Shown: positions 1 through 9,124 of the stretch, in pieces
Position numbering within the stretch: the first letter of the stretch is position 1
Layout of the letters: the number at the start of each line of letters is the position of its first letter
Assembly (NCBI GenBank): GCA_905236295.1
Contig: CAJOQF010000088.1
Span: forward strand, 1-10,468
Source of the DNA: an uncultured Eubacterium sp.
GTDB lineage: Bacteria > Bacillota > Clostridia > Lachnospirales > Lachnospiraceae
Direction of reading: 5' to 3'
DNA length: 10,468 nt
Notes under the pieces: generated by a model
What the model saw: the letters and a program-made list of their open reading frames with translations, nothing else
What the model was told of the DNA's origin: nothing
The model's database searches: none
Translations under genes and position numbers: made by a program

Positions 1-234
1 GATTGCGACTGCTTTCATCATTCGAATCCGTGCTTCTCTCGCCTTTTCCGTCGCCGTGGACTCCGAGAACTCGGGGATTGCGACTGCTTTCATCATTCGA
101 ATCCGTGCTTCTCTCGCCTTTTCCGTCGCCGTGGACTCCGAGAACTCGAAGCTCTCTACTGCTTTCATAATTCGAATCCGTGCATCTCTCGCCTTTTCCG
201 TCGCCGTGGACTCCGAGAACTCGGGGATTGCGAC
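1..234. repeat. 75-bp tandem repeat array, three copies plus the start of a fourth, open at the left edge
   Basis: Units lie at 1-75, 76-150 and 151-225, and the first nine bases of another at 226-234 pass into the palindrome. Units 1 and 2 are identical over their first 73 bases. Unit 3 differs in its first ten or so bases (GCTCTCTA in place of GATTGCGA) and at two later positions (ATCATT to ATAATT, GCTTCT to GCATCT). Each unit contains TTCGAA and the small inverted repeat CCGAG-AA-CTCGG. The length is exactly 25 codons, so any frame stays in phase. The consensus unit is open in all three plus frames and two of the three minus frames. The array continues beyond the window, so the copy number is unknown. 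Confidence 0.95.
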
Positions 235-1492
235 AGTTTTGTTCCACAACAACGCATTCTGCGTTTTGTGGACAAAATCTTGTCGCAGGGTACCGCGAGT
301 TCGAGAAATTCACAAGCACCCCCTCCGGTTCGTAATACCTCATCAAAAGGCTGATAAGCGTCGTCTTCCCCCCTCCGGTCTGTCCGACGACCGCCACGCG
401 CTGTCCCCTCTTAATCTTGAACGAAACGTCATGGAGTATATCCCTCTTGCCGTCATATGAAAAACTGACATGTTCAAACCTGATACTCTCAATCTCTCCC
501 TCGGGATCGGCTCCCCCGGCGTCAGCCTCATCTTCCATCTCGAGCACCTCAAAGACTCTCTTCGCGCACACAAACGCATTGGTAAGCTCAGTGATAACCC
601 CGGAAATCTCATTAAACGGCTTCGTGTACTGGTTGGCGTACGCCAAAAGCGAAAACAGGTTTCCGACCGAAATCACTCCGCCTATGGCGGACAAAGCGCC
701 TATCAGTCCTACAAGCATATAGACGATAGCATTGACAAACCGCGTCACAGGATTTACAAGCGACGAGTAAAACATTGCGTTCTTGCTCGCCCTAAAGAGC
801 TTTTCATTTCCGTCTGCGAACTTTCTCAGCATCTCATCCTCACCGCGATACGCTCTCACGGTCTTTTGCCCGGCTGTCATCTCGTTCACATACGCGGTCA
901 TCTCCCCCCTGTTCTTCGACTGGTCGCCAAAGTATCTGTGGGATCTCTTTGCTATGAAGGCAGCCGCAAACATCGAAAGCGGCGTGACCAGTACCACCAC
1001 CAGCGCAACCTTCACATCTATAAAGAGCATGAACACGAGCGTTGTGCCTATCGTAAACAATCCGGTAAACAACTGTGAAAAGCCGAGAATCAGTCCATCT
1101 GAAATCTGTTCGACATCCGCGATCATACGACTGACCAGATCACCCGTCTTAAACGAATCGATCCTTGAAATTGACAGCCTGTTTATGCTTTCATACACAT
1201 CATCCCTGACACTTCTCGCCACGTGAAATACGATGCGGTTGTTCAGGCAGGTCATCAACCACTGCGCAAGGAATGCCGCTGCGATCAGGAGTACTATAAA
1301 AAGGACATCTTTATATACTTCATCAAATATTACCCTGTCCTTCTCTACTATCGCATCCACTGCCTTGCCGATGAGCACCGGAATGAGCAATGTGACCACA
1401 ACCGTGACAAGCGCAAGGATTGCCGAGACTATTATTGCCGGTATATGCTTTTTTAAATATCCGAGCAGATGCCGTACAACGCTAACCTTCAT
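1..1492 (-). CDS. ABC exporter half-transporter (permease-ATPase), NBD interrupted by a repeat element; runs off the left edge
   Basis: 497 codons are visible with no stop before the window edge. The ATG at 1492-1490 overlaps the end of the upstream ABC gene by 11 bases and has an AGGAGG box in that gene's last codons, so the two are translationally coupled. Residues 1-310 form a type I exporter transmembrane domain with hydrophobic helices near 18-42, 60-80, 138-160, 162-182 and 250-290. The NBD begins at about 335 with an A-loop tyrosine (FSYDG, Y346) and Walker A GQTGGGKTT at 370-378. ABC similarity stops near residue 391 (EPEG, about base 320). The Q-loop, signature, Walker B and switch histidine are all absent. 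Residues 392-497 are encoded by the palindrome and the 25-residue repeats (RVLGVHGDGKGE...). As read, the protein could not hydrolyse ATP. In this exporter class it would be the half carrying the consensus catalytic residues. Either the gene is disrupted or the assembly joins unrelated DNA here. The substrate is unknown. Confidence 0.85.
   Translation of the reverse strand, partial: MKVSVVRHLLGYLKKHIPAIIVSAILALVTVVVTLLIPVLIGKAVDAIVEKDRVIFDEVYKDVLFIVLLIAAAFLAQWLMTCLNNRIVFHVARSVRDDVYESINRLSISRIDSFKTGDLVSRMIADVEQISDGLILGFSQLFTGLFTIGTTLVFMLFIDVKVALVVVLVTPLSMFAAAFIAKRSHRYFGDQSKNRGEMTAYVNEMTAGQKTVRAYRGEDEMLRKFADGNEKLFRASKNAMFYSSLVNPVTRFVNAIVYMLVGLIGALSAIGGVISVGNLFSLLAYANQYTKPFNEISGVITELTNAFVCAKRVFEVLEMEDEADAGGADPEGEIESIRFEHVSFSYDGKRDILHDVSFKIKRGQRVAVVGQTGGGKTTLISLLMRYYEPEGVLVNFSNSRYPATRFCPQNAECVVVEQNCRNPRVLGVHGDGKGERCTDSNYESSRELRVLGVHGDGKGERSTDSNDESSRNPRVLGVHGDGKGERSTDSNDESSRN
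230..286. repeat. 57-base imperfect palindrome (long hairpin) adjoining the 75-bp repeats
   Basis: The left arm is GCGACA (230-235), TTTTGT (237-242), CCACAA (244-249) and AACGCA (251-256). The loop is TTC (257-259). The right arm is TGCGTT (260-265), TTGTGG (266-271), ACAAAA (272-277) and TGTCGC (281-286). The blocks pair perfectly and are separated by single-base bulges at 243 and 250 and an unpaired stretch near the base (236 against 278-280). The structure would be stable as RNA or single-stranded DNA on either strand. There is no T-tract, so it is not a rho-independent terminator. It sits between the ABC homology break and the repeat array, which suggests that it is the core or end of a dispersed element. 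Confidence 0.85.
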
Positions 1493-3122
1493 ACTGCACC
1501 TCCTGCGAATCGCATATATCCCTGTATTCTTTCAGGCTGATATAGAGTTCCCTGTGCGAACCAAATCCCGCGATCTTGCCTCCGTTGAGTACCGCTATCC
1601 TGTCACAGCTTAAAATAGATGCCATTCTCTGCGAAATGTCTACGACCGTCATGTTTCTTTCTCTTGCCCTTGAAAATATACCTTCATAAACGAGCTTCGC
1701 GGTAGCATTGTCAAGCGCCGAAAATGCATCGTCGAGTATCAAAAGCTCCGGCATACCCACAAGCGCCCTCGCTATCGCGATTCTGGCCTTCTGACCTCCG
1801 GAGAAGTTTACTCCGTTTTGCTCCACCTTTGCCGACAATCCGCCCTTTTCATATACGAAATCATAAGCACAAGCAAGCCTTAGAGCCTCATCCATCTCCT
1901 CTTTTGTCGCATCTTCTTTTGCAATTTTTATATTGTCTTCAACAGTACCGGAGAAGATTGTAGGCTTTTGAAACACAAAACCAAGTGACTTCGACTCTCT
2001 CCATTTTCCCACATCCATTCCGTCTATACGTATCGCATTGTCATGCGTCGGATAAAATCCTCCGATCATTGCGGCGAGAGTGGACTTTCCGGAGCCTGTC
2101 GCACCGATCACGCCGATTATCTCTCCTGTTCCAAACTCAAACGACAGTCCCTCTCCGTAAACTCTTTGCCTATCCTCGTGATCGAGCACTTCGCAAACCC
2201 GGTCCGCACTCGCCAAAGACTTACTTATATTCACGATCAGATCCGCGTATTTGATCAGCTCGACAAGTATCGCCGCCATGTAATTTACAAGCGCTACTAT
2301 CTCTCCTTGTGTGACATATCCTGCCCAGACTCTCTGAGAACCGCTTATCAAAATTGCGCAGACTCCGAGGTCAACGATCACAAGAGTCAACGGATTCAAA
2401 AGACCCGCAAGTCTGCCGACTTTTATCTGCCTTTCATATAACGAACCGTTTTCAGACGCAAATTCCCCACAAAGGTCGTCCTCCTTTGCAAATGCGCGGA
2501 TCACTCTCACTCCCCCCACTGCCTGTCTGGTCTTTAGGAGCAGCTCATCAACCTTTCCCTGTATCTTTTTATAGCCCTTAATATTCTTTCTCATGATAAG
2601 CCATATGACAAGAACAAGCACAGGTATTATCACGCACATGACAAGCGCCAGCTTCACGTCAATAAAAAAAGACATTACAAGCGAGCCGAAGACTATGAAC
2701 GGTGACCTTAGCAGAAGTCGAAGCGTAAGGTTTACTCCCGTCTGAAGCTGATTTATATCGCTGGTCATCCTTGTGATAAGGGTTGAAGTTCCGATTTTGT
2801 CCAATCCAAAAAAAGAGAGCCCCGAAATCTTTTGCATCAAAGCTTCTCTTAAATTCTTCGCAAATCCGCTCGCGCTCACAGCCGAAAAATACTGAGCGAC
2901 CACAGCGAGAACCACTCCGGCTGCGGCAAGGGCTATAAGGATCATGCAGCGGCTGTATATATATCCCGTATCACCGCTTTCTATTCCCACATCGATCATC
3001 GCCGCCATCACAAGCGGAACAAACAGCTCAAGCACAGCCTCCGACATCTTAAATGTCGGGGCGAGAATGGACTGCATCTTGTATTCTTTTATATATCTAA
3101 ATAGTTTAAGGGAATTTTTCAT
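1482..3122 (-). CDS. ABC exporter half-transporter with degenerate catalytic site (permease-ATPase)
   Basis: This 546-residue fused transmembrane/ATPase half is the first gene of a heterodimeric exporter of the BmrC/TM287 type. The transmembrane domain covers about 1-300, with helices near 20-45, 60-80, 132-152, 158-178, 240-262 and 275-300. The NBD has Walker A GATGSGKST (340-348), Q-loop Gln385 (VFQKP), signature FSGGQ (440-444) and Walker B LLILDD (460-465). Two residues are non-canonical: the catalytic Glu after the Walker B Asp is Asp465, and the switch His is Gln498 (ISQR). Both changes are known from the degenerate subunit of such heterodimers. The NBD is also short: the first beta-strands with the A-loop tyrosine seem missing between VLDHED (about 313) and GLSFEF (about 325), which explains why the protein is 25-35 residues below usual length. 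I chose ATG 3122; a GTG directly before it (3125) is possible. An AAAGAG box precedes both. Substrate unknown; the pair is probably a multidrug, peptide or lipid exporter. Confidence 0.9.
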   Translation of the reverse strand: MKNSLKLFRYIKEYKMQSILAPTFKMSEAVLELFVPLVMAAMIDVGIESGDTGYIYSRCMILIALAAAGVVLAVVAQYFSAVSASGFAKNLREALMQKISGLSFFGLDKIGTSTLITRMTSDINQLQTGVNLTLRLLLRSPFIVFGSLVMSFFIDVKLALVMCVIIPVLVLVIWLIMRKNIKGYKKIQGKVDELLLKTRQAVGGVRVIRAFAKEDDLCGEFASENGSLYERQIKVGRLAGLLNPLTLVIVDLGVCAILISGSQRVWAGYVTQGEIVALVNYMAAILVELIKYADLIVNISKSLASADRVCEVLDHEDRQRVYGEGLSFEFGTGEIIGVIGATGSGKSTLAAMIGGFYPTHDNAIRIDGMDVGKWRESKSLGFVFQKPTIFSGTVEDNIKIAKEDATKEEMDEALRLACAYDFVYEKGGLSAKVEQNGVNFSGGQKARIAIARALVGMPELLILDDAFSALDNATAKLVYEGIFSRARERNMTVVDISQRMASILSCDRIAVLNGGKIAGFGSHRELYISLKEYRDICDSQEVQYEG

Positions 3123-3131
3123 CACTTACAT

Positions 3132-4526: not shown

Positions 4527-6455
4527 CTATCTGAGCATTTCCTCAAGTGAATCCTGTACCTCATCGGACACCTTGTGCATAACATCCGCAGAAGCTGTCG
4601 ATTCCTCTGTGGATGCGACCAGATTCTGAGTTCTCTCATTTACAAGAGAAACTATGTTTCCTATCTTTTCAGACTCCTGGATCAGTCTGTCTACCGCCTC
4701 GTGTATCTTTGTGTTGTTCCTGTTGCTGTCATCGGCGGCAAGTTTTGAATTGTCGGCAAGTTCCTTTATCTCATTTGCAACTACCGCAAATCCCTTTCCT
4801 GCCTCACCGGCGCGCGCTGCCTCGATGGAGGCGTTTAGCGCAAGCAGGTTGGTCTGTCCCGAAATACTGATAACCTGCTCGTTATTCTTTTCGAGGTCTC
4901 CGAGGTATCCTTCTATTGTCATCATTGCGTCTTTGAGATCTCCGATGAACTGTTCAAGCTCGGTCATGGACTCGGATATTCCAACTGTCTCATCGGCATT
5001 TGCAGAGTTGATCTCTCTTATGGAATTGATCGTATCACCAAGTTTTACGAAACTCTCATTTATCTGGTCTGCAAGTTCGGTCTGTCTTTGCTTTGCCTCA
5101 TCATGGGCTTCCTGTATCTCATCCATAAGCGAGTTGACGTGCTCTTTTTCCGCATGGGCGACATCCCTCGTATAGAAAACACAGTTCTCTTTCCTGTTAA
5201 ATCCGTTGAAGATGGCGCTCGCCATGATCCAGCATCCCGGATAACCGCAGGCACAGCAGTCAATATTGCGCTTCTTCTCGGTTGTCTTTAACATATCATC
5301 AAAAACCGAATCAAGTTGAGCCTGTGTCGGCACCCTATAACCGCATTGATCACTCCGGTCTGTGTATTTCCTCATAAAGTCATTGAGATTCAGATGTGCA
5401 AACTGTTTGTTGAGCGCAGCAAGTCTCTTCTGCGGAGTAGCCGGGCGCCCCCATGCACTTTTCTTATCGTAGTTTTTGGAATCAGTTTTTATCTTCTGAA
5501 TCTCTACAAACACGTCCTCATTCATAGTCTTTCTCGACTCTGTGCCCGGTCCGTAAAGACATCCGCTCGAGCAATTTAATGCGTCAATAAACAGATACGG
5601 AAGCTTCTTATCCTTTATCCTGTCTTTGTTGCGTCCAAGATAATCGTACATATGGCGCTCGCCCTCCATCTGTCTTATGAGGGTATCTTCTCCGCACAGC
5701 CAGTATACATTCTCCTTGAGACCGCCAGGCATAGGATAGATGGATCCGAGACCGTACTCGATCTCATCCACCGCCGGCGCACCGCTCACCGGATGTTCTT
5801 TTAAGTATTTTACAAGATGAGCAAAGGTGAGATTGTACGATACATATCCGCCGTTGTTCGGATCTTCGATCTCCGCCTTCTTTGCTATGCACGGACTGAT
5901 GAACGCAAGCCTGTCATCAACATGCATATATTTTTTCACATAGATCGCACCGCACATCATGGGACTCTGAACCGGATTTAACATCGGGATTAGTTCCGGC
6001 AGATATCGTTCTATATATCCGACAACCGCAGGACACGGCTGAGATATACCACCCTTAAAGTTATGCTCTGTGATGTATTTTATGTAACCCCAGGTTGTGA
6101 TATCCGCGCCAAAAGAAATACTTATTATACGGTTTGCTCCAAGCGCTTTAAGCTGTCCGAGGATCTTTGAATATTCCCCGGGATAATTTGCAAGAAATGC
6201 CGGAGCGACGAGAAGCGAGATCTTCTCCCCCTTTGCAAGATCCTCAAAGAACCTTTCGGTGTCATCGATATACTCCCTTGCGTTGTGTTCACACGCATCA
6301 AGACAAGCACCACAGGCAATACATCTGTCCTGATCCACCTCGATCCTGTTTTCGCCATCCTCGGTCTCCACGGAGACATTGGCTCCGATAGCGCTACAGA
6401 CTCCGATACACTTATTACATCCGATACAGTTATCATTAGTTAAAACAAGTCCCAT
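4527..6455 (-). CDS. Ferredoxin / [FeFe]-hydrogenase-like / chemoreceptor signalling fusion (putative H2 or redox chemosensor)
   Basis: A 642-residue soluble protein with four modules. (1) Residues 1-60 are a 2[4Fe-4S] ferredoxin, with Cys 10/13/16/20 and 45/48/51/55. (2) Residues 75-365 are the [FeFe]-hydrogenase H-cluster domain: L1 is ISQPCPAVV (Cys141), L2 is SPCIAKKAE (Cys189) and L3 is [10 protein letters not shown] (Cys295, Cys299). All four cluster ligands are present, but the first Cys of catalytic TSCCP is Pro140 and the Met of MPC is Ser, as in sensory rather than metabolic hydrogenases. (3) Residues 385-428 form an extra Fe-S motif, Cys400/401, 403, 408 and 425 (CGYPGC), like the RnfB-type FeS domain. 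(4) Residues 430-642 are a coiled-coil methyl-accepting chemotaxis signalling domain with the conserved hairpin tip at 531-567 ([18 protein letters not shown]). There is no signal peptide, membrane helix or HAMP domain, so this is a cytoplasmic receptor. AAGGAGG precedes the ATG. It probably reports H2 or redox state to CheA/CheW. No maturation genes are in the window. Confidence 0.9.
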
Positions 6456-6488: not shown

Positions 6489-7670
6489 CTATAAAGCATC
6501 GACAAGTTCTTTGAACCTATCTCCTCTCTCCTCAAAGTTTTTGAAGTATCCGTATGACGCCGCCGCCGGCGAAAGGATGCAGGCATAACCTTCCGGTGTG
6601 AGTGATGCCGCCTTTGAAACCGCCTCGTCAAGCGTCTCACAATAATGCGAATGTGTCTTCTCCGGGATTCCGCGATATATCCTTCTGCCGGAATCGTAGC
6701 AGAACACATACTCATATTCCTCGTGATCCTCCACAAAATCTATCAGCACATCATAATTTATGCCTCTATCCATTCCACCGATGATCACCGTCTTGGCATT
6801 CGGGACGGATCTCAGTGCCTCGATCGTTGCATCCGGGATAGTGGAAATTGAATCGTCGTAATATTCCACCCCGTTCTTCTTAACAATATATTGGAGCCTG
6901 TGATCAAGTCCGGAGAATGTCCTCATATCGTTAAGTATGGTTTCCTCGTCCAGACCACAGAGCTTTGCTACCGCCTCAACAAACTGAGCGTTATAGTTGT
7001 TGTGCGCTCCAAGAATCTTTAGTTTGTAATCTCTGATATTCTGGCGTGTCACACGCACCTTGTCGGCTTCTGTCTTCACATCCGGAACTCCTTCTCCGAT
7101 AAAGAAATAGTCCCCTGCCTTCTGGTATTTTGTGATATTTGCCTTCGCGTTAAAATAGTTCTCAAGTGTCCTATAGTAATCGAGATGCTCCTCGAAAAAG
7201 CTTAAGAAAAGCGCTATATGAGGTGAAACATTCAGATGCCTTAACTGATGACAGCTCATCTCAAAAACGACCAGCGTATCTTTCTTTACATCACCGAAGA
7301 AATCAAGCGGTGGCTTTCCGATATTTCCAACCATCACTGCATCCCTGTGATTCTTAAGGACATGGTAGATCATCGCCGTCGTGGTGGATTTTCCTTTTGT
7401 GCCGGTAATACCTATAGTCTGGTCGCGAAACTCCTCCAAAAAGATCTGCGTCTGGGAAGTATATTTAAAATGGTTCCCCTCCATGATGATACCCGGACTC
7501 TTTACTATATAATCGTAGGCATCCTCATTTATATCATCTCTCTGACCCTCGAAAATCTCCACGGATCTCGGATTGCAGAATTTTTCCAAAAACTTCTCAG
7601 TAGACTTTCCTTCACATCCGTATCCCCAGATCAGAATTCGCTTATCTTCAAATTTTTCCGTTACACTCAT
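6489..7670 (-). CDS. murD2: UDP-N-acetylmuramoyl-L-alanine--L-glutamate ligase (MurD2-type Mur ligase)
   Basis: This 393-residue Mur ligase would join glutamate to UDP-MurNAc-L-Ala in the cytoplasm. The N-terminal domain starts KRILIWGYGCEGKST. The ATP loop is GITGTKGKST (GTKGKST at 90-96), followed by EMSCHQL (137-143), EEHLDYY (His162) and NAKANI with the presumed carbamylated Lys176. The C-terminal domain has GAHNNYN (221-227), GLDHRL and DDSISTIPDAT (from about 272). A DSIST-TP/IP loop in place of the DSKATN/DSKGTN of classical MurD is the mark of the MurD2 subgroup, and the adjacent murL supports an L-Glu rather than D-Glu substrate. The protein is somewhat shorter than classical MurD (about 440-450). 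I chose ATG 7670 because GAGAGG lies nine bases before it. ATG 7679 is an alternative; the longer reading to 7721 overlaps murL and has no ribosome binding site. If murL were wrong, ordinary MurD would be the fallback. Confidence 0.82.
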   Translation of the reverse strand: MSVTEKFEDKRILIWGYGCEGKSTEKFLEKFCNPRSVEIFEGQRDDINEDAYDYIVKSPGIIMEGNHFKYTSQTQIFLEEFRDQTIGITGTKGKSTTTAMIYHVLKNHRDAVMVGNIGKPPLDFFGDVKKDTLVVFEMSCHQLRHLNVSPHIALFLSFFEEHLDYYRTLENYFNAKANITKYQKAGDYFFIGEGVPDVKTEADKVRVTRQNIRDYKLKILGAHNNYNAQFVEAVAKLCGLDEETILNDMRTFSGLDHRLQYIVKKNGVEYYDDSISTIPDATIEALRSVPNAKTVIIGGMDRGINYDVLIDFVEDHEEYEYVFCYDSGRRIYRGIPEKTHSHYCETLDEAVSKAASLTPEGYACILSPAAASYGYFKNFEERGDRFKELVDAL

Positions 7671-7704
7671 TTTATTCATCCTCTCAATATTACACCAGGA
7701 TAAA

Positions 7705-9051
7705 TCAAGACTCCCTGACATTATCGACTACAATTTTATAAAACTCTTCCGGCACATTGTGCTCCGGATAAAAATACCCCATTATATCGTCAAGCTCATC
7801 CGGCATCTGACTGACGTATTTTGCATACCTGTCCGTCAAAAGGCTTCTGCCGCCCATCTTTACAAAATGGCTGATGCAGCTTGTAACCTCTCTTCTGGTG
7901 CCCACGCACTCGAACGGTTTATTCTCATCTATCCCCGAGAGCTCCTTAAATTCTTTGTCCAGAGAATCCTTGTCGAGCAACTTTTCTCCGAATATATCGA
8001 TCAGCTTTTCCTCCGGGACAAACGGGGAAAGTATGATATATACAAACAGGCATTTCGCGCAGTCACAACACCAGATACCCTTTTTGCTTCCCACGTTGCA
8101 GCTTCTGAAAACCTTGTGATAATCCTCGAATTTTGAGAACAAAAACGCGATCTGCAATTCGGAAAGCGGCCGAAGCAGGCTGAAATAGTGTATGTCGTAA
8201 TCACTGAGTGTCTTGACATACTCCGTAAAATCCATCTCAAACTCAAAACTTTTTGAGTACTGGTGATTTACAAACGAGTCCTTTACAGTGGACTCATTTG
8301 CACTTGATTCATTTGAGAGCGCAATGTATTTAATGCCGTTGAGATAGGAAGTTATCACTGTCGAAAAAGCGACGACTGCCGAAAACGGAATGTGTCCGTT
8401 TAAATACCCTGCATCGTTCAGCTCAAGTATCTTCCTGTCGAGTATTCTCTTTACTCTGTAATCTGCCTTTGCATTTTTGCAGGCTGATATAACATTTTTC
8501 GTTGTCTCATTTCCGTTTATGGAGTAGGTGTTAACGCCAGCATCTTTCAAAAGTTCAAGACTTACCACCGAATCCTTTCCGCCGCCGACGGGAACCAGCA
8601 CTCCCCCGTAGGTGTTTGTGTCGTGAATCGGGGATGCCGCTTCGACAGACTCAGAGTCCGGCTTCGGCTCAGCGCATTTTATCTCAAGCAATTCATCCCG
8701 AGAAATTTTAATCCCGTTAATATACTGGAACTCTCCGAGTCCGTTATAAAAGAGCTTCCTCCACCAGTCATTTTGCCAGTCACTGAGGCTGCCACACATA
8801 ACCTTTACGGTTTTCGGGCAGGCACATTTGTAGTAACTTATCGCCTCAACCATTCCAAGCGAAAACGCCAGCCTCTCAAGTATGGGATCGCTCTCGCTCT
8901 TTTTTGAAGGAAAGCGCCACTTTGTCTTAAACTCCGAAAGGCCCTCTATCTCATAATTAAACTGCATGGCGCACTCGCCGTCTGCAAATCCTATGCTGTA
9001 ATCTTTAAAAATAAACTCACTATACTGTTTTCTAAGTTCGTCAAAAGTCAA
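7705..9051 (-). CDS. murL: UDP-N-acetyl-alpha-D-muramoyl-L-alanyl-L-glutamate epimerase (MurL)
   Basis: MurL converts the L-Glu of UDP-MurNAc-L-Ala-L-Glu to D-Glu in an ATP-dependent reaction, replacing glutamate racemase MurI. Numbering is from the TTG at 9051 (448 residues). A PP-loop, VPVGGGKDS (about 153-161), binds ATP. It is followed by SINGNETT, the family block SNESSANES (about 246-254), HQYSKSFEFE (about 263-272) and a Cys-rich WCCDCAKCLF (about 327-336). No membrane segment or signal peptide. The start is uncertain: TTG 9051 has GGAG eight bases before it, while TTG 9075 in the same frame has no ribosome binding site. The gene precedes murD2 by 34 bases, the expected functional partner, and is transcribed from a promoter at 9125-9153. 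I recognise the family from its motifs and from the murD2 linkage. A generic PP-loop ATPase is the alternative. Confidence 0.83.
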   Translation of the reverse strand: MTFDELRKQYSEFIFKDYSIGFADGECAMQFNYEIEGLSEFKTKWRFPSKKSESDPILERLAFSLGMVEAISYYKCACPKTVKVMCGSLSDWQNDWWRKLFYNGLGEFQYINGIKISRDELLEIKCAEPKPDSESVEAASPIHDTNTYGGVLVPVGGGKDSVVSLELLKDAGVNTYSINGNETTKNVISACKNAKADYRVKRILDRKILELNDAGYLNGHIPFSAVVAFSTVITSYLNGIKYIALSNESSANESTVKDSFVNHQYSKSFEFEMDFTEYVKTLSDYDIHYFSLLRPLSELQIAFLFSKFEDYHKVFRSCNVGSKKGIWCCDCAKCLFVYIILSPFVPEEKLIDIFGEKLLDKDSLDKEFKELSGIDENKPFECVGTRREVTSCISHFVKMGGRSLLTDRYAKYVSQMPDELDDIMGYFYPEHNVPEEFYKIVVDNVRES

Positions 9052-9124
9052 AATAACATCTCCATTACTGATCAAAACTTTTTAGTGAAAAACGCTTTAC
9101 TCCAACGCATTCTCACTCTATTTT

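Follow-up and report, generated by a model that had tools for sequence, protein, structure and literature searches.

The window analysed here is the whole of contig C88, 10,468 bp long, from an assembly of 2.14 Mb in 387 contigs that is 80% complete. Two adjacent ABC half-transporter genes lie on the minus strand at its beginning (Table 1). The first of them started with an ATG and remained open over 497 aa up to the edge of the window. Pfam recognised an ABC_membrane domain and positions 1-69 of the ABC_tran profile, and the Walker A motif (GQTGGGKTT) was found at residues 370-378. ABC homology was normal up to approximately residue 391-393, where it ended with RYYEPEGVLVN; the next 104-106 residues were encoded by repeats and free of stops. 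These repeats consisted of a palindromic element, followed in the direction of the gene by a tandem array that ran off the contig.

The closest homologue of the encoded protein, P0001, matched the structure of TM_0288 (3qf4_B) with an E value of 9.3e-111, the top chain being 9x46_B at 1.5e-124. Named homologues were few and came from Clostridia, Agathobacter and Roseburia. With a closest homologue that matches TM_0288 and an adjacent partner whose ATP site looks degenerate, the pair resembled heterodimeric ABC exporters such as TM287/TM288, from which it differed by a canonical half with a large insert in its NBD.

Table 1. Coordinates of the exporter genes and repeat features on contig C88 (the window) and contig C116
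Feature	Position	Strand	Basis or remark
ABC exporter half-transporter gene, 5' part (TM domain, Walker A)	2..1492	-	ORF list and Pfam; runs open off contig end
Partner ABC half-transporter, degenerate-looking ATP site	1482..3125	-	Walker B LLILDDAF, H-loop DISQRM, by eye
Palindromic element common to the C88 and C44 copies, 93 bp (31 codons), stop-free in ABC frame	213..305	-	alignment with C44:6540-6633
Conserved 72-bp core, 7 full genomic copies	225..296	-	
Hairpin stem-loop of core, compensatory changes among copies	229..287		
75-bp (25-codon) tandem array, 3.1 copies in window, running off contig end	1..234		period 75, 91% matches
Same array at other contig end	C116:12577-12626		final 50 bases of C116
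C-terminal NBD half of exporter gene	end of C116, up to base 12626	-	frame and Pfam continuation

An exporter gene probably divided between two contigs

The reverse strand at the end of contig C116 read RNPRVLGVHGDGKGEE-YDIREL...MVLQDTW...LSEGQKQ...LVLDEATS...VAHRLST up to a stop. Its first 15 residues were array peptide (RNPRVLGVHGDGKGE), after which came EYDIREL and the remaining NBD with Q-loop, LSEGQ, Walker B including the Glu and H-loop, all in the phase of the ABC frame of C88. On this contig the ABC_tran profile was covered from position 47 to 137, a range that fits a single domain with the one on C88. At 11 orthologue loci, the C116 half shared 50-57% identity with this subunit's orthologues and 29-39% with the partner subunits next to them. 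The second-best match to it in the own genome was a 40% paralogue on C161, which was ruled out as a rival C-terminal half by its own Walker A and whole NBD.

Because of the shared phase, the complementary Pfam ranges, the orthologue identities and the complete NBD of the C161 paralogue, the best reading is that C88 and C116 carry the two sides of one gene. The array was spanned by no contig of the 387-contig assembly and the overlap of the C116 end with the C88 start amounted to 9 bp only (GATTGCGAC); the physical connection is one that we infer. Over the two contigs the motif set of a canonical half was complete, and a truncated exporter was ruled out by the remaining NBD on C116. The truncated look of the window gene comes from an assembly break within the array. 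Contig ends bound by repeats can in this way make intact genes appear truncated in draft genomes.

The original prediction, in which a hairpin and a tandem array extend the reading frame of the ABC gene on the minus strand, was confirmed with the extents given in Table 1, as was its description of a gene that is normal to about residue 391, Walker A included, and then turns into unrelated stop-free repeat sequence. Its proposal of a repeat element read in frame within a housekeeping-type gene gained support from other copies of the palindrome in the genome. It had also taken the repeat for a C-terminal tail, which does not hold as the gene continues in frame behind the array on C116. Q-loop, signature and Walker B, which it had considered gone, are encoded in frame at the end of that contig, so that the exporter pair would keep its canonical half and is not left with the degenerate one only.

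As the other option, it had been suggested that the window starts at a misassembled repeat. An assembly break does lie in the repeat, and nothing points to a chimeric join. The fragmentation into 387 contigs and the contig ends lying in repeat copies at C88, C116, C165 and C291 speak for a chimeric contig that joined the ABC gene to the repeat, but an array that was otherwise unfound lies at two contig ends, beside complementary gene halves and in the same frame. An artefact would thus need two in-register events, and we regard it as very improbable.

Searched against its own genome with BLAST, the stretch 1-330 matched 13 places at E <= 0.001. At the same threshold and over all 387 contigs, the part of the 75-bp unit that lies outside the element's arm was present only at the start of C88 and at the end of C116. 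The refuting condition set originally, a lack of further copies of the element in the genome, did not hold for the palindrome, which is multi-copy; the array is confined to a single locus at that threshold. Five of the six frames of one 75-bp unit were free of stops, as were four of six for the array as present; at least five open frames occurred in 674 of 20,000 shuffles of the unit. Lack of stops and in-frame reading are weak evidence when taken alone, the phase agreeing by chance one time in three. Among the five open frames of the unit, the ABC frame had the fewest hydrophobic residues (3 of 25 versus 9-14), and each whole array copy adds 25 codons with the frame unchanged. Homologues of the repeat peptide were found in neither of two reading frames, among candidates limited to proteins of 0.55-1.75 times the query length, so that long fusions may be missed, and a Pfam scan of one other repeat frame gave no match.

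A palindromic family with a conserved hairpin

The 16-mer GCGGTACCCTGCGACA occurred with up to three mismatches at 23 places in the own genome, with 7 in all for the reversed-pattern control. The 15 of these 23 places with 0-2 mismatches were inspected. They comprised seven full copies, on C44, C88, C89, C116, C127, C342 and C152, with 46 invariant columns out of 74, and eight partial, nested or reduced ones. At E <= 0.01, a covariance model matched the own genome 13 times, corresponding to eight places and five reverse-strand echoes. On C88 and C44 the core was flanked by the arms CTCGAACTC and CGAGTTCTCGG.

Several of the incomplete copies had a distinct architecture. On C44, a diverged outer copy carried the full copy nested inside it. 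The copies on C165 and C291 ran off contig ends, and three copies (C116:1103, C291:5694 and C268) were shortened. On C193 (9555-9711), the core was split by about 85 bp with other palindromic sequence; by eye, sequence similar to this inner part begins at the C291 contig end, and further palindromic families may exist in the genome. The C70 copy (1501-1520) consisted of just the two ends of the core, a hairpin-less 20-bp form within a 20-bp terminator-like stem, which could be a deletion product or an ancestral target. On C89 (9433-9620), the core seems by eye to be followed by a tandem pair of diverged units, each about 85 bp long, so that arrays may have grown beside the element repeatedly.

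RNAalifold predicted 25 pairs for the seven full copies. Seven of the 25 had changed on both sides and none on one side only, and breaks affected two pairs near the hairpin loop, in two copies each, and one pair in a single copy. The number of pairs changed on both sides was reached by 0 of 500 shuffles, four of five covariation measures exceeded every shuffle and slid structures came nowhere near, although related copies can beat shuffles even without structure. The fifth measure, which counts further pair types, was reached by 439 of the 500 shuffles. Taken together, these comparisons are good evidence for conservation of the hairpin itself, be it as DNA or as RNA. Single-sequence folding of bases 1-330 was unremarkable, with a z score of -1.57 and 6 of 100 shuffles equally stable. 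As for coding capacity, two of the three forward frames of the core were open in all seven full copies and the frame used by the exporter gene in five of them.

No target-site duplication was identified at the element. GAAT, present on both sides, was rejected by eye as a simple duplication because its removal would put the gene out of frame. The Y1 transposase (PF01797) had no match in the own genome, 80% complete, in a search that succeeded in 5 of 14 controls.

Genomic sites and spread of the copies

Copy neighbourhoods were compared on ten contigs including the window, C70 and C268 being left out. Among them, the window copy alone lay inside a gene and the others were intergenic, for instance between the HSP70 and DnaJ genes on C44 and between converging ORFs on C342 and C127. 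Six ORFs touched the other copies, five of them without Pfam match. In the sixth, a histidyl-tRNA synthetase at C116:1103, the best Pfam match began at residue 29, past the stretch read from the element, so that the true start is probably located downstream.

Four of nine sites (C116 at 9640, C127, C342 and C70) were enclosed by perfect 13-20 bp stems with A/T tracts, as was no more than 1 of 5000 random places. The sites on C44, C88, C89 and C152 had stems of 5-6 bp, matched by 664 to 1,495 of 5,000 random places, and the C193 site one of 3 bp. Duplex energy, a looser measure, placed seven of the nine sites past roughly 98% of random places. With perfect stems the four sites alone stood out, and a hairpin-loop location for all copies was not supported. 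We take the element to be enriched in terminator loops without being confined to them. A terminator scan of one copy was uninformative, as it is blind to stems with loops of more than 8 nt. IS1397, IS621 and ISKpn1 are described as inserting into palindromes (PMC1525189); by analogy, such palindrome-targeting IS elements may serve as a lead for the loop preference of the present element.

In the sets searched outside the host genome, the element was not encountered. A DNA search found no copy in 40 relatives, and the covariance model found none in three other genomes of the genus or, under strict filters and with 16 candidates scored per listed genome, in 298 other genomes of the family. One weak match of 26 bp, to part of the array, came from a DNA search of 396 other family genomes, an insensitive one that scored no more than two candidates for each listed genome and recovered only 2 of the 13 known places in the own genome. 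Phages, plasmids and viral contigs gave no match, the viral contigs having been searched by exact 22-mers only. An exact 22-mer in the genome_contigs set matched one place in Methylococcus; this was taken as chance and not as a copy, because the right arm of the core is absent and the place reads, by eye, as a coding stretch. From these searches, the element looks restricted to the host species or its close kin. At the level of titles and abstract openings, no description of it was found in the literature.

The covarying hairpin and the terminator-like stems bear on the role of the palindrome, which might be a regulatory module, either a structured RNA or a terminator, and not mobile, with the copy in the exporter gene affecting transcript or translation. 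Pairs changing on both sides and never on one are as expected for an RNA, and the A/T-flanked stems would suit a terminator. DNA hairpins, however, can covary too, no T-tract follows the gene copy as judged by eye, and the nested copies together with the absence from the searched relatives look like a mobile repeat. No known RNA family was recognised either: the sole Rfam row for the window was at chance level (E 0.84) and lay elsewhere in it. A purely regulatory module is in our view quite unlikely.

Position of the insert and its proposed origin

Spacing of the NBD motifs was determined in 131 homologues, namely the best 120 of 7,976 and the 11 orthologue loci, of which 126 were scored and 5 were not. 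The distance from Walker A to Q-loop was 36 residues in 117 of the 126 and 40-67 in the other nine, whereas in all 126 the Q-loop was 58-59 residues from the signature and the signature 21 from Walker B. The insert therefore sits in the only one of the three measured segments that grows. The nearest homologues, P0001 (60%) and P0002 (57%), had 21 extra residues between Walker A and Q-loop. In the window gene this spacing came to about 148 or more (119 + 32, less an overlap of 3 residues), corresponding to an insert of at least about 112 residues. Its position and the polar nature of the peptide fit a tolerated loop in this single genome and fall short of proof. The search for an empty-site allele found none: the closest homologue shared 60% identity across 77% of the query. 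The window protein as modelled by AlphaFold with 27 homologues had a mean pLDDT of 64.5 with good TM helices; both the cut NBD from residue 360, upstream of the insert start, and the repeat were below 50. Because the cut NBD is already modelled badly from that residue, the model gives no information on the insert.

An insertion of this size raises the question of a recent pseudogene, in which the in-frame insertion is real and the long insert disrupts the NBD of a dead protein. The extra residues far exceed the spacing of the nine expanded homologues, and the case comes from one genome only. Nevertheless, the catalytic motifs downstream are intact with the stop placed after them, the insert occupies the segment that also grows in homologues, and the frame used yields a polar peptide. 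We consider a dead protein doubtful, while giving it some weight.

We think it probable, with good confidence, that the expandable loop of the canonical exporter half received the palindrome as an in-frame insertion, that the array was amplified beside it and that the gene is continuous though split by the assembly. Under this proposal, a 93-bp palindromic element with a hairpin core, known from the host genome only, would have entered between Walker A and Q-loop in the half of a heterodimeric ABC exporter that carries the catalytic site. Neighbouring DNA, including the right arm of the element, would then have been amplified into the 75-bp (25-codon) tandem array. Since element and array unit both have a length of 3n and no stop in the frame of the gene, one continuous, longer protein with a polar insert is predicted. 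Insertion by mobility, array growth by slippage and an active protein are steps that we infer. Most likely, then, the gene is lengthened with its frame intact, broken in the assembly only, and carries a new family of palindromic repeats.

A broader scenario is more speculative. The family might seek hairpin loops, those of terminators and of its own kind, and with its stop-poor core enter genes without breaking them, seeding a 25-codon minisatellite that lengthens a tolerant loop of the exporter ATPase and yields length variants of the pump. Taken as a whole, we rate this chain of events as unlikely.

The best-known examples of in-frame coding palindromes come from Rickettsia, where the palindromic elements (RPE) form ten families and nearly half of those in R. 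conorii lie in genes. Here, one coding copy was found among those examined. The host is a member of the Clostridia, and a 75-bp tandem array is attached. Shared with RPE are the small multi-copy palindrome, repeated at many genomic places, and the in-frame, stop-free insertion after which the host gene resumes; the latter was seen at one locus, where the frames agree on both contigs and the join is the one proposed above. Frequent coding insertions in unrelated genes were not found on the ten contigs including the window. RPE are described as being about 150 bp long, present in many copies and in some cases in frame within genes, with a predicted lengthening of the product (PMC10969869). Likened by features and not by sequence, the present element would work like an RPE in its coding copy. 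An in-frame palindrome in Clostridia, placed in a well-understood enzyme and in a loop that varies among relatives, would offer a direct test of whether such insertions are tolerated or used.

Two other classes of repeats were considered for comparison. Repeats of the REP, BOX, RUP and SPRITE type are described as small and mostly intergenic, and small pneumococcal repeats as inserting into each other (PMC10969869; PMC3733652). The present element shares size, intergenic placement and nesting with REP/RAYT and MITE-type repeats (BOX, RUP, SPRITE). It differs from them in that no GTAG or CGTC tag was seen by eye, the Y1 transposase was not found and the copy number is low. PARCELs are described as coding repeats of 25 residues (75 bp) in arrays of variable number with dyad symmetry, amphipathic and located in ORFs without assigned function (PMC2996958). 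The period of 25 residues is common to both, whereas the peptide here is polar and lies inside an ABC NBD; this distinction relies on the description of PARCELs and not on sequence.

Further along the window, two loci on the minus strand had unusual domain combinations. At 4527-6455, an [FeFe]-hydrogenase-like domain (TIGR04105, 134 bits, below the cut-off of 450) was fused to a methyl-accepting chemotaxis signalling domain; the product is possibly a sensory hydrogenase. At 6489-9075, a MurD ligase (TIGR01087, above cut-off) adjoined a MurL-like epimerase (NF041275, 254.9 bits, below the cut-off of 700), and the two make up a MurL-MurD2-like pair that probably lies outside Xanthomonadales.
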